This document shows, one piece after another, positions 23,054-27,411 of a stretch of DNA of 64,000 bases. Position numbers and translations under genes: made by a program. Below the pieces are notes generated by a model. It had not been told where the DNA came from. It made no database searches and worked only from the letters and a program-made list of their open reading frames with translations. Source of the DNA: Synechococcus sp. Nb3U1 (GTDB taxonomy: Bacteria > Cyanobacteriota > Cyanobacteriia > Thermostichales > Thermostichaceae); NCBI RefSeq assembly GCF_021533835.1, contig NZ_JAKFYQ010000001.1, positions 1,336,079 through 1,400,078 on the forward strand, in the 5' to 3' direction. Each line of letters starts with the position of its first letter. The stretch's first letter is position 1.

Positions 23054-23389
23054 TTATTCTTCTAGCACGTAAGAGATGGCGTTTTTGTTGACGCAAATAA
23101 ACTCTGCATGGGCAACCCGGCGACCGTTGACAAACATTTCTGAATCCGTCATGGCCACAAATGTACGTTCATCATTGAGCAAGCTGGAAACCCGTCGCTC
23201 GAACTCGGTGCCTTCCAAAAACACTTCCCCGCGAATATCCGTGCCATCGAGGGTGCGAATACGGATGCGTCGCCGCTCTTCCCCCACCGCTTGAGCTGTT
23301 TCATATGCCCCCCGCCGGGCTGCCTTTTTCATGGAGCGACCCGAGGTACTCATGGCATCACGCAAATCGTCGAATGGCTCGCCGTTCAT
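23054..23389 (-). CDS. Conserved hypothetical small protein
   Basis: The 111-residue soluble protein has an N-terminal helical, basic part (MKKAARRGAYETAQAVGEERRR) and a C-terminal beta-rich part including IRIRTLDGTDIRGEVFL, LLNDERTFVAMTDSEMFVNG and AHAEFICVNKNAISYV. The C-terminal half looks like a small beta-barrel of the PilZ or SH3-like kind, but no family can be assigned safely. It sits between the Hsp70 gene and the ABC ATPase gene on the same strand. Confidence 0.55.
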   Translation of the reverse strand: MNGEPFDDLRDAMSTSGRSMKKAARRGAYETAQAVGEERRRIRIRTLDGTDIRGEVFLEGTEFERRVSSLLNDERTFVAMTDSEMFVNGRRVAHAEFICVNKNAISYVLEE

Positions 23390-23702: not shown

Positions 23703-25295
23703 CTAACTTAAAGTGGCCACGGGCTGAGCGTCCGCTAAGAGTTGTTGAGTTTGCAAATCGGTGATGGTGGCCAACAAGCGCCGGGATCCATCCACGGCAA
23801 ATTCGATGCGGAGGCGATCTTCTCCGGCGCGGCCAGGAGGGGTAAGGTGGGCCAAACAAATGGGTTCGGGAGCCGATCCGGGGGCTGGGGCTTGGGCAAG
23901 GGAACGGAAATCCGTTTGGCGGGTCAGCTGACGGCTACTCATGCGCCCTAACTCGTCATAGATCACCTCGGACTGGGCCACCTGGGCCACTTCCCCCACA
24001 TCCAGCCGAATCTCCGTTTGACCGTCGTTGGCCACCTGTAAAATGAGGGGATCCGGGCGCTGACAGGGATAGGGACAGCCCCGCTCAAACAGAGGGTAGT
24101 AGCTGTAGCTTTTTTGTGAGGGATCCCAGAGGCGAATGGCGTAGCTGTGGTGCAGATGGTCATCCAGCTTCACTTGGCGGCCCAGTTGCAGAGCGCCAAG
24201 GGCCACCGCATCGAAAGGGCGCTCACATTTAACCCGCTTTTTGCCGAAATAGGAGCGGATCAGATCTTGCACCACCGGTAGCTGGGAGCTACCCCCCACC
24301 AGCAGTACCTGCTCAATTTGGGCTTTGCTAAATCCCTTGGCCTGTGCCGTCAGGAGAATTTCATCCAGGCAATGGCGAATTTGATCCAACATCTGATGGC
24401 TTTCTAGGATCTCCTCCAGCATCTGGCGATCCAACCTCAGCTCATGGGCGATCAGGGTATCGTCATCGAACCAACTGCCCACCGCCTCAGATTGGCTAGA
24501 GAGAGTGATCTTGAGCTGTTCTGCCCTCTCCAGCAGGTTGAGCCAGCCCAGGGATCCGATTTGCGCTCGCGTTAGGCCCAGTTGCTCGAGCAGATACTCG
24601 GCAATCCAGGTATCGATATCCAGCCCGCCCACATAGGCATCCGACTTGGCGATTACTTCCGCTTTCAGGGTGGGATCCCCCGGTTGGGGGGCAAGGGTAC
24701 GCACCAGGCTGAGATCCAGGGTGCCACCGCCAAAGTCTACCACCAACACCACCGCCCCCGGCTGAGCGACGGCATAGCCCAGGGCGGCTGCGGTGGCTTC
24801 ATCAACAATTTGAATCGGATCCCAACCGCAGGCGCTGGCTACACCCCGGATCCAACTGAGATAGCGCTCGAAGGATCCCACCGGAGCCGTAAACACCACC
24901 CGTTCCGGTCGCAAGTGCTCTTTGGGGAGCGCTTCCATCACCGCTTGCAAAAAGGCTCGGGCGACGGTCTCGGCATCGTAGCGTTGGCCATCCAGCAGCC
25001 GAGGGGGAGGGACAAAATCTGCCACCAACTCCCGTTTGAAGCCCTGGAACAACCGCTGGGGATCCACTGTTCCCCAACGGCCTGAGCGCACGGTTTCTCC
25101 CACCAACAGTTGATCGGATCCTTTGACAAATACAAGGCTAGGAATGACAGAGTGGGCTTGTGCTGGGCGAGATAAGCCGGGAAAGGTGAGAGTACGGGCG
25201 CTTTCTTGGAGGGGATCCCAGCAACAGACGACGGTATTGCTGGTACCAAAATCGATGGCCAAGGCCGCAGCAGTAGGTTTTTTTGCAGAAGCCAT
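23703..25295 (-). CDS. Short Hsp70-family chaperone ATPase
   Basis: The 530-residue protein has a complete Hsp70 actin-like ATPase domain: phosphate 1 motif IDFGTSNTVVCCWD, VVFTAPVGSFERYLSW, DEATAAALGYAVA, phosphate 2 VVDFGGGTLDLSLV and adenosine motif VLLVGGSSQLPVV. The substrate-binding part is only about 150 residues and lacks the DnaK lid, ending near LLADAQPVATLS, so it is not DnaK itself. It starts two bases after the stop of an HTH-GrpE-like gene, implying that both are made together and that the upstream protein is its nucleotide exchange factor. Confidence 0.9.
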   Translation of the reverse strand: MASAKKPTAAALAIDFGTSNTVVCCWDPLQESARTLTFPGLSRPAQAHSVIPSLVFVKGSDQLLVGETVRSGRWGTVDPQRLFQGFKRELVADFVPPPRLLDGQRYDAETVARAFLQAVMEALPKEHLRPERVVFTAPVGSFERYLSWIRGVASACGWDPIQIVDEATAAALGYAVAQPGAVVLVVDFGGGTLDLSLVRTLAPQPGDPTLKAEVIAKSDAYVGGLDIDTWIAEYLLEQLGLTRAQIGSLGWLNLLERAEQLKITLSSQSEAVGSWFDDDTLIAHELRLDRQMLEEILESHQMLDQIRHCLDEILLTAQAKGFSKAQIEQVLLVGGSSQLPVVQDLIRSYFGKKRVKCERPFDAVALGALQLGRQVKLDDHLHHSYAIRLWDPSQKSYSYYPLFERGCPYPCQRPDPLILQVANDGQTEIRLDVGEVAQVAQSEVIYDELGRMSSRQLTRQTDFRSLAQAPAPGSAPEPICLAHLTPPGRAGEDRLRIEFAVDGSRRLLATITDLQTQQLLADAQPVATLS

Positions 25296-25297
25296 TG

Positions 25298-25903
25298 TTA
25301 GCTCAATCCTCCTGGCAAAGAACGGCTGACTTTGGCTGGACAGAAAATATCTTCCCCCTGACGGTAGCCGACAAAGCGGATGTAAACGGGATCTCCAGCT
25401 TGAATATCCGGTTGATCCGGCTGATGCAGTTGCGGATTGAAGGGAACCGATTCTAGGGGGCTGCCGATGGGTTCGTACCCCCAGTGCTGGAGCAGGGCAT
25501 CAAGGGAGCGGAAGAGGGCCGTGACATTCTGGGCGGGCCAGTCGGGTTTGCGCTGGGCGATCTGGCGAATGGTGGGGTAGCTAGTGAGCAAGGGTTGCAA
25601 CAGAGAGAAGGTCGCGTCTGAGGAAGCAGGGGAATGGGGTAAAGGAGCTGATTGATCTTCTGATTGATCTGGTTTATCCGGGGCTTGGTTGCTGGGATAG
25701 ATGAGATGGAACAGAGATTGCAACTCCCAATTCAAGGCTAACGCCAGCTGTTGCAGTTGTTGTAGGCGCAGGGATCCCCACTCTCCCCGGCGCAGATGAT
25801 CGATGGCCCGCCGACTGACACCCGATTGCTTGTGCAAAGCTTGCCAAGAAGATATCCCTAGAGTTTGCATACGCTGGCGCAATGGTTCATCTAAGGGGTT
25901 CAT
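25298..25903 (-). CDS. HTH-GrpE-like fusion, probable exchange factor of the adjacent Hsp70
   Basis: The 201-residue protein has an N-terminal XRE-like helix-turn-helix, residues about 12-60 (LGISSWQALHKQSGVSRRAI, then LRRGEWGSLRLQQLQQLALA). A low-complexity linker follows. The C-terminal segment matches the beta head of GrpE: WGYEPIGSPLESVPFNPQLH, then DPVYIRFVGYRQGEDIFCPA and KVSRS. GrpE drives ADP release from Hsp70. Fusion to a DNA-binding-type domain suggests a dedicated or regulated cochaperone. The long GrpE dimer coiled coil is short or absent here. The Hsp70 gene follows after two bases. The GrpE call rests on motif reading only. Confidence 0.7.
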   Translation of the reverse strand: MNPLDEPLRQRMQTLGISSWQALHKQSGVSRRAIDHLRRGEWGSLRLQQLQQLALALNWELQSLFHLIYPSNQAPDKPDQSEDQSAPLPHSPASSDATFSLLQPLLTSYPTIRQIAQRKPDWPAQNVTALFRSLDALLQHWGYEPIGSPLESVPFNPQLHQPDQPDIQAGDPVYIRFVGYRQGEDIFCPAKVSRSLPGGLS

Positions 25904-25943: not shown

Positions 25944-27311
25944 TCACAGCCCCTTCAGATACCCATTGGCACCGGTCGGGATCCCGGAGAATGGTCGGTT
26001 GGCTTGTTGGTGCTCCACCAGCCGACCCAATTCTCGCTCGAAGGTGACCAAGGCGCGGTTGGTTTTGCCCCCCAAGTAGAGGCCGGACTCTGCTTGCAAG
26101 GCCCAGATTTGGCTATGGCTGAAATAGCTCATCACCACCCCCACCATCAACAGCCCAAACCCGAGATATACCCAAGGGATGCCGGGATCCGACTTGATTT
26201 GCAAGCCTGTAGAGCCAATCACCTCATCCAGATGCAGGGTGAGCCGATCGTTCAAGGCTAAACTCATGCCCTGGCGCAGGGATCCGATCCATTGGCCGTC
26301 GTTGTTGTAGAGCAGCCCTGTCCCCTGCAGATCCGGCAATAGCAGCGTCAACCCCTCACTCAGATCCGGTTTGGTGGGCACAAAAGCTCCCCAAAGTTTG
26401 CTGCCCGACTCCGTACGCACCGACACCACCGGGATCTGAAAGCTGGGGCTGTTGTTAACACGGATACGGGCACTATCGATGCTCCAGTCCGCTTGATAGA
26501 GGGTAACTCCCTGATAGCTGAGGGGATGATTCACGGAAATGGTCTGGTGTTTGGCTTCTACGCCCTGATCGAGAATGGAGAGATCTGAATAAAACTGCTT
26601 GACGCGACCCTCCGGAGAATAGTCGATCCAGAATCGGTTCACCCGAATTTGCCAGGTGGGCGGGTGGGCCAGATCCCCGGCGCCGGTTAGGTGTTGAATG
26701 GGGGCGGTGCTGCCGCTGGGGATCAACTCTTGGGCCTTGAAGCCGCTGATGCTGCCCCAAATGGCACCCAAGAGAATTAGCAGCATGCTGACATGCACCA
26801 GAATTGGGCCGATTTTACCGATCAAACCCTTACGGGCATATAGCTGGTTGCCCTCCTGAAACACTGCGTAGCCCTGTTGACGCAGATATTCCGGGATCCC
26901 TTGCAATGTTCTTTGGGGTAGATAAGTGCGAAACGGCAGGCGCTGAAAAGACTGCGGACGGGTGAAGTAGCTCCAGCGACGGGCTACCTTCAGCATCGGC
27001 CATTGGCGGGTAAAAGAACAAGCGGTGAGACTGCTGCCAAACAGGATCAAAATCGCCAGAAACCAAGGGGTGCGATAGACATGATCCAATCCGACATTTA
27101 AAATCACCCGCCAGGTGAGGAAGCCAAACAGGGCGGGGTGTTCTGGATAGTGGGCTTGATAAAAAGCAGCGGTTTCCTCTTGCTCGATCACCGTGCCTGT
27201 GGCGCTCAAAAGGGCAATCACCAGCAATAGGCCAATCGCCAAGCGCAAATCCGCCAACAACGGCAGCAGCTCATGACGAAAATACCGCCGCACGGAAGAG
27301 ACCAAAGCCAT
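25944..27311 (-). CDS. ccs1: Cytochrome c biogenesis protein Ccs1/ResB
   Basis: The 455-residue System II haem-handling protein has three N-terminal membrane helices (LRLAIGLLLVIALLSATGTV, PWFLAILILFGSSLTACSF, IGPILVHVSMLLILLGAIWG), a large lumenal ResB domain (about residues 195-385) and a final helix VYLGFGLLMVGVVMSYFSHS. The conserved VHVSMLL histidine is present. With CcsA it delivers haem to apocytochromes such as f and c6 on the lumenal side. It follows ccdA on the same strand by about 100 bases, and its CcsA partner is not in the window. ATG 27311 is preferred to a TTG at 27329. Confidence 0.92.
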   Translation of the reverse strand: MALVSSVRRYFRHELLPLLADLRLAIGLLLVIALLSATGTVIEQEETAAFYQAHYPEHPALFGFLTWRVILNVGLDHVYRTPWFLAILILFGSSLTACSFTRQWPMLKVARRWSYFTRPQSFQRLPFRTYLPQRTLQGIPEYLRQQGYAVFQEGNQLYARKGLIGKIGPILVHVSMLLILLGAIWGSISGFKAQELIPSGSTAPIQHLTGAGDLAHPPTWQIRVNRFWIDYSPEGRVKQFYSDLSILDQGVEAKHQTISVNHPLSYQGVTLYQADWSIDSARIRVNNSPSFQIPVVSVRTESGSKLWGAFVPTKPDLSEGLTLLLPDLQGTGLLYNNDGQWIGSLRQGMSLALNDRLTLHLDEVIGSTGLQIKSDPGIPWVYLGFGLLMVGVVMSYFSHSQIWALQAESGLYLGGKTNRALVTFERELGRLVEHQQANRPFSGIPTGANGYLKGL

Positions 27312-27411
27312 GGGCAAAAACCTAAGCAAAATTGATAGAAGGAGACCCGTCCACCGTTCTGGCTACGCAAGGTGCGGAGCACCATCTTAGCCCGCACACA
27401 GGGCTCCCTTT

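Follow-up and report, generated by a model that had tools for sequence, protein, structure and literature searches.

What is a GrpE-type protein doing with a DNA-binding-type domain at its N-terminus, and why is it encoded next to an Hsp70 that has no lid? The question is raised by two neighbouring genes of the cyanobacterium Synechococcus sp. Nb3U1, found in a window of 64,000 nucleotides (by window we mean the whole stretch of DNA that was analysed). The answer we favour is that the first gene probably specifies a dedicated, tethered GrpE-type co-chaperone, working for a specialised accessory Hsp70 of cyanobacteria, the product of the second.

A gene pair distinct from the housekeeping chaperones

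The features discussed here are the following, in window coordinates.

25298-25903, minus strand: HTH-GrpE open reading frame, 201 aa
25694..25903, minus strand: Cro/C1 (XRE)-type helix-turn-helix (HTH), residues 1-70 (Pfam HTH_26, AlphaFold2 helices, structure alignment)
25631..25693, minus strand: disordered linker, residues 71-91 (pLDDT <50 at 72-75 and 83-89; linker comparison)
25319..25630, minus strand: GrpE-type core, residues 92-195 (profile match E 1.6e-6; Z 8.8 to 1dkg_B and 4ani_B)
23703-25295, minus strand: lidless Hsp70 open reading frame, 530 aa
24171..25274, minus strand: Hsp70 ATPase (nucleotide-binding) domain, residues 8-375 (Pfam HSP70 3.7e-29; VIA-align Z 29-30 to the DnaK nucleotide-binding domain)
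24453..24464, minus strand: tight hairpin, residues 278-281, at the site of the GrpE-signature loop of DnaK (DnaK alignment; hairpin in the model)
23706..24146, minus strand: Hsp70 beta substrate-binding domain, residues 384-530, alpha lid absent (AlphaFold2 strands to 528; DnaK alignment)

The first-pass annotation had placed the stop codon of the HTH-GrpE gene two bases from the start of the Hsp70 gene, and coordinates and strand agree: bases 25296-25297 are all that separates that stop from the ATG of the Hsp70. The stop and start codons of the pair overlap by 1 base in the nearest relatives and by 4 bases in several more distant ones, an arrangement which, judged from the sequence, points to translational coupling. 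The pair is kept across the window genus with 73-88% identity, and this, together with its conservation across genera, rules out a chance open reading frame. A housekeeping GrpE is ruled out as well: a canonical GrpE (6e-45) and DnaK are encoded side by side at a separate locus of the same genome, so that the HTH-GrpE/Hsp70 pair must be seen as an extra system. A scan of genome contigs with the window Hsp70 returned a single locus. On the same strand, the pair is preceded, after a gap of 40 bases, by a gene for a ResB-like cytochrome c biogenesis protein (25944-27329, minus) and followed by a DUF6812 gene (23054-23389, minus); in the locus comparison, both are absent from the neighbours common to several genomes.

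An HTH joined to a GrpE-type core

As a single sequence, the window protein falls below the Pfam threshold for GrpE. Its sole Pfam match is HTH_26 (residues 8-64), whose E of 6e-4 falls narrowly short of the curated cut-off; a search of the PDB with the same single sequence gave nothing informative. A family profile made of the window protein and 36 relatives from cyanobacterial genomes matched the GrpE proteins of Geobacillus, Thermus and E. coli present in the PDB, with E-values of 1.6e-6 to 2.1e-6. The alignment spans the coiled coil, the bundle and the head, including the PFDPxxH, GY and AxV motifs. Within the family, Pfam finds HTH_26 in 32 of the 37 members and GrpE in 17 of the 37 (best E 2.5e-8).

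The AlphaFold2 model of the 201-residue protein has a mean pLDDT of 86.7 and a pTM of 0.57, which leaves the arrangement of the domains not fixed. It comprises five HTH helices (5-14, 20-27, 31-38, 47-56 and 61-68), a disordered linker, helices at 92-118 and 132-141 and a seven-strand beta head at 144-193; as bundle helices of the GrpE-type core we count 92-118 and 125-141. The head carries the motifs VPFNPQLH ... GYRQGE ... PAKV, and the corresponding FNPxxH, GYxxGE and PAKV are strongly conserved in the family alignment. With VIA-align, residues 3-70 superpose on the 434 repressor (Z 9.1), residues 84-195 on E. coli GrpE 1dkg_B (Z 8.8, 103 residues, rmsd 3.8) and residues 92-195 on 4ani_B (Z 8.8, 98 residues, 26% identity). 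A Z near 8 is borderline when taken alone; we take kinship with GrpE as shown because these values of 8.8 and the family-profile match agree. Foldseek, used with the whole chain, gives weak E-values for GrpE (0.015 and above).

Profile, model and structure alignment thus concur with the initial description of the protein, an XRE-like HTH joined to a GrpE head. It had further been proposed that the coiled coil of GrpE was lost. This is true of the window genus; in most relatives a heptad segment some 30 residues long persists, which the linker comparison places between the HTH and the bundle. As the bundle helices are kept in the window protein, its dimerisation need not be lost.

An Hsp70 that departs from DnaK

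Residues 8-528 of the Hsp70 superpose on DnaK with a Z of about 30-33 (VIA-align). The chain stops at the end of the beta substrate-binding domain (SBDbeta), where the lid of DnaK starts, and both the SBDalpha lid and the C-terminal tail are absent. In the AlphaFold2 model the last helix is over by residue 368 and strands run to residue 528, and the Foldseek matches include lid-deleted DnaK structures. The protein had been called lidless from its sequence, and model and alignment now say the same.

Positions were mapped onto E. coli DnaK numbering by manual count, in an alignment that used the genome's own DnaKs; by that count the lysine of the DnaK 'AKRQ' motif is K55, while the catalytic lysine, K70, is retained as window K87 and E171 as window E166, both of them invariant. 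Around this preserved catalytic site four features differ. The IIB loop, known in reviews as the GrpE signature (DnaK 290-295), is 4 residues shorter in all the Hsp70s aligned except the most distant row, L096. The window Hsp70 has Ser in place of R56, a residue that in DnaK forms one of the two salt bridges of the cleft; among the aligned paired Hsp70s the K55 site is mostly Arg and E267 is invariant. R167 is replaced by Gln in the window genus, and the interdomain linker, LLLD in DnaK, reads LHHS, with similar sequences in relatives. The roles of these residues in DnaK (loop, salt bridges, R167 and linker) are documented (PMC8215388; PMC6843406). The changes at R56, R167 and the linker indicate that the cycle of this Hsp70 differs from that of DnaK, and the four differences would be expected to weaken coupling to J-domains and to make any contact with GrpE non-canonical. 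As the Hsp70 has neither the GrpE-signature loop nor a normal linker, canonical nucleotide exchange is here something that we infer.

Two lineages in the cyanobacteria

The first-pass annotation took the pair to be a dedicated Hsp70 with its own co-chaperone, a claim that invites a survey of cyanobacteria. The profile search covered 146 genomes of the phylum and matched 63 of them: 59 of the 64 Cyanobacteriia, the five misses all falling in one family, and 4 genomes from other classes. A tree of the GrpE core (107 columns, obtained with a quick method, unrooted and with many forks open) splits the family into two paralogous lineages, A, which includes the window protein (support 97), and B. 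The Hsp70s of lineage A likewise group together (support 99), the deep branches of their clade matching those of the GrpE tree, and when the two trees are compared the genomes of the window family group after two HTH-bearing families. The lineage-A genes for GrpE and Hsp70 are adjacent or overlapping in most genomes, with a 1- or 4-base overlap in many, and the pairwise distances of the two partners correlate over 24 pairs with an r of 0.94, part of which is explained by shared species history. A lineage-A Hsp70 stands without an adjacent lineage-A GrpE in G030, G044 and G057, and the reverse is seen in G016. Pairing and similar trees in lineage A, added to a domain reading that was right, speak for a dedicated couple.

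Outside the class, three genomes likewise have the two genes side by side (L114:3879-4550, L115:4078-4992, L116:3970-4503); no HTH and no membrane helix was detected in their GrpE-type gene, which the Hsp70 gene precedes in L114 and L115. L079, L080 and L081, which belong to one family, have a lineage-A Hsp70 gene without a GrpE-type gene beside it, and in all three the next gene after the Hsp70 is a conserved one of 169 aa. A search of plasmids gave no match for the GrpE-type relative and distant Hsp70s only for the Hsp70.

Members of lineage B keep the HTH, and most of them the coiled coil; their gene is usually apart from that of their Hsp70. A gene for a sulfiredoxin-like protein (ParB_N), a Dps-like ferritin or both is found in the same orientation, in most cases immediately upstream, at 17 of 25 lineage-B loci versus none of the 30 lineage-A loci, 'sulfiredoxin-like' and 'Dps-like' being our readings of ParB_N and Ferritin domain matches, the former with an SGCHR motif. 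In L056 and L067 the gene order is sulfiredoxin-like, ferritin, HTH-GrpE, Hsp70. This context ties lineage B to oxidative stress and possibly to the protection of DNA. Operon-like rows with a lineage-B HTH-GrpE include L054, L056, L064, L067, L070, L071, L073 and L074, among others.

A changing N-terminus

In lineage A it is the N-terminus that changes. Thermostichus-like and deep-branching families have the HTH, which stands by itself in the window genus, in the rest of its family and in two further families, f14 and f17. With membrane helices called by hydropathy only, L043, L112 and L113 have a membrane helix followed by the HTH, and in 16 rows of the tree such a helix is the sole N-terminal element. 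Outside the window family, most lineage-A relatives have a membrane helix that replaces or precedes the HTH. An N-terminus that varies in this manner looks like an exchangeable tether, not like a fixed transcription domain. The presence of the HTH in deep branches of the unrooted tree suggests that the HTH was there first, that the membrane helix was added and that the HTH was then lost.

Membrane helix, HTH, coiled coil and GrpE-type core are all present in one protein at L043:4986-5834, L112:4089-5012 and L113:3925-4707. At L043, the downstream gene overlaps by 4 bases and resembles a membrane permease, not an Hsp70. L068:4425-5585 encodes a family member of 386 aa with a long extension N-terminal to the HTH.

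What the head and the tether might do

The mechanism that we would propose for a dedicated, tethered co-chaperone is as follows. An Hsp70 reduced to an ATPase domain and a beta pocket would probably hold its clients loosely. Through its beta head and bundle helices the partner would bind the ATPase domain and alter the nucleotide state of the Hsp70, and the exchangeable N-terminal tether would decide where the chaperone works. This tether would be a DNA-binding-type HTH in the window genus, a membrane helix in many cyanobacteria and both in a few. Pushing the idea further is more speculative, and we do so tentatively: the tether might set the site of the chaperone, at the nucleoid via the HTH or at the membrane via the helix, with a local action of the lidless Hsp70, on proteins bound to DNA for instance, and with lineage B, the one linked to Dps, serving the nucleoid in oxidative stress.

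The strongest objection to this reading is the missing GrpE-signature loop: HscA and HscC have lost that loop too, which has been read as a sign that they work without GrpE (PMC8215388). This leaves two possibilities, a rebuilt interface or a head that serves as a scaffold. In the latter case the GrpE-type head would be a scaffold or an inhibitor that places or locks the Hsp70, and not an exchange factor, which we consider unlikely. The loop is shortened in all the paired Hsp70s aligned, as this alternative would have it, and the replacement of R56 may raise intrinsic release of ADP, as argued for HscA and HscC (PMC8215388). The head motifs FNPxxH, GYxxGE and PAKV, by contrast, are under strong conservation, and with the K55 site mostly Arg and E267 invariant one cleft bridge could remain, so that exchange could still need help.

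The other alternatives bear on the HTH. It had been suggested at the outset that nucleotide exchange may be linked to transcription or to the positioning of the chromosome. In favour of such a link count the net charge of the HTHs devoid of a membrane helix (+1 to +6, with one exception at -1), their mostly basic recognition helix and Arg46, which by alignment we take to be the equivalent of the DNA-contacting Arg43 of the 434 repressor. Against a general role in transcription count the membrane helix of most lineage-A relatives outside the window family and the want of an operator: upstream of the pair, in five genomes of the window genus, there is no conserved operator-like element, nor is the upstream sequence itself conserved. 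An autoregulated operon with a conserved operator is therefore not supported, since these five regions have no common element. That the protein should be a transcription regulator, its head telling an idle lidless Hsp70 from an occupied one and its HTH tuning the pair or stress genes, thus seems quite improbable to us; the DNA-binding features of the HTH, the operon with Hsp70 and the frequency of lineage B in sulfiredoxin/Dps operons speak for it, but many relatives keep the pair though their HTH is lost or membrane-bound. Somewhat unlikely, in our opinion, is an HTH that binds protein instead of DNA, as RodZ does with MreB, its partner being the ATPase domain of the Hsp70, through a second contact, or something in the membrane. 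Hsp70 and MreB have the actin-type fold in common, and the MreB model does match the window Hsp70 (E 7.7e-12). YmfM, which has a RodZ-type HTH, is among the Foldseek matches, the three HTHs that follow a membrane helix have, with start codons chosen mechanically, a lower charge (-4, +1, +1) and have lost Arg46, and the HTH of RodZ is needed for binding to MreB (PMC3599482). The positive charge and basic recognition helix of most forms without a membrane helix go the other way, and the pair is intact in many relatives without an HTH, which makes this domain dispensable for holding the Hsp70.

Comparison with known systems

Targeting of Hsp70s is usually credited to J-domain proteins. If true, a GrpE-type protein with a switchable anchor, of the DNA type or in the membrane, would imply that nucleotide exchange, too, can be tied to a place; and with a partner that has neither the lid nor the loop taken to mark users of GrpE, the pair would be a test of what a GrpE head really needs. 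The family is present in 59 of the 64 Cyanobacteriia sampled, yet undescribed in the literature that we searched: no HTH-GrpE fusion, and no pair of HTH-GrpE with a lidless Hsp70, was found in a search where subscription journals were thinly covered. A survey of conflict systems in eLife has Hsp70 and GrpE together only in a different context. Cyanobacteria are known to have another specialised Hsp70 system, DnaK1-DnaJ3-GrpE of Nostoc. In the parts of that study available to us it is described with the single annotated GrpE homolog counted in that genome, without mention of the present family (PMC9239167).

With GrpE (PF01025) the family shares the bundle helices, the beta head and its motifs, the profile match in the PDB and a gene beside that of an Hsp70. 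It differs by its N-terminal HTH, membrane helix or both, by the absence of the long coiled coil in the window genus, by a partner Hsp70 without the GrpE-signature loop and by a window sequence which, alone, falls below the Pfam model. The Hsp70 has the ATPase domain, catalytic residues and SBDbeta of the DnaK type (PF00012); unlike DnaK, it has no SBDalpha lid or tail, LHHS stands for LLLD, the IIB loop is shorter and R167 is replaced. HscA and HscC are likewise specialised Hsp70s without the GrpE-signature loop, and for HscC a connection with tail-anchored J-proteins of the membrane has been described (PMC8215388). They keep their lid, however, and are thought to be independent of GrpE, whereas the window Hsp70 is lidless and comes with a dedicated GrpE-type gene. 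Finally, RodZ combines a Cro/C1-like HTH with a membrane helix and has an actin-fold ATPase as its partner. That partner is MreB, and RodZ has no GrpE head; in the present family the membrane helix, if there is one, precedes the HTH.
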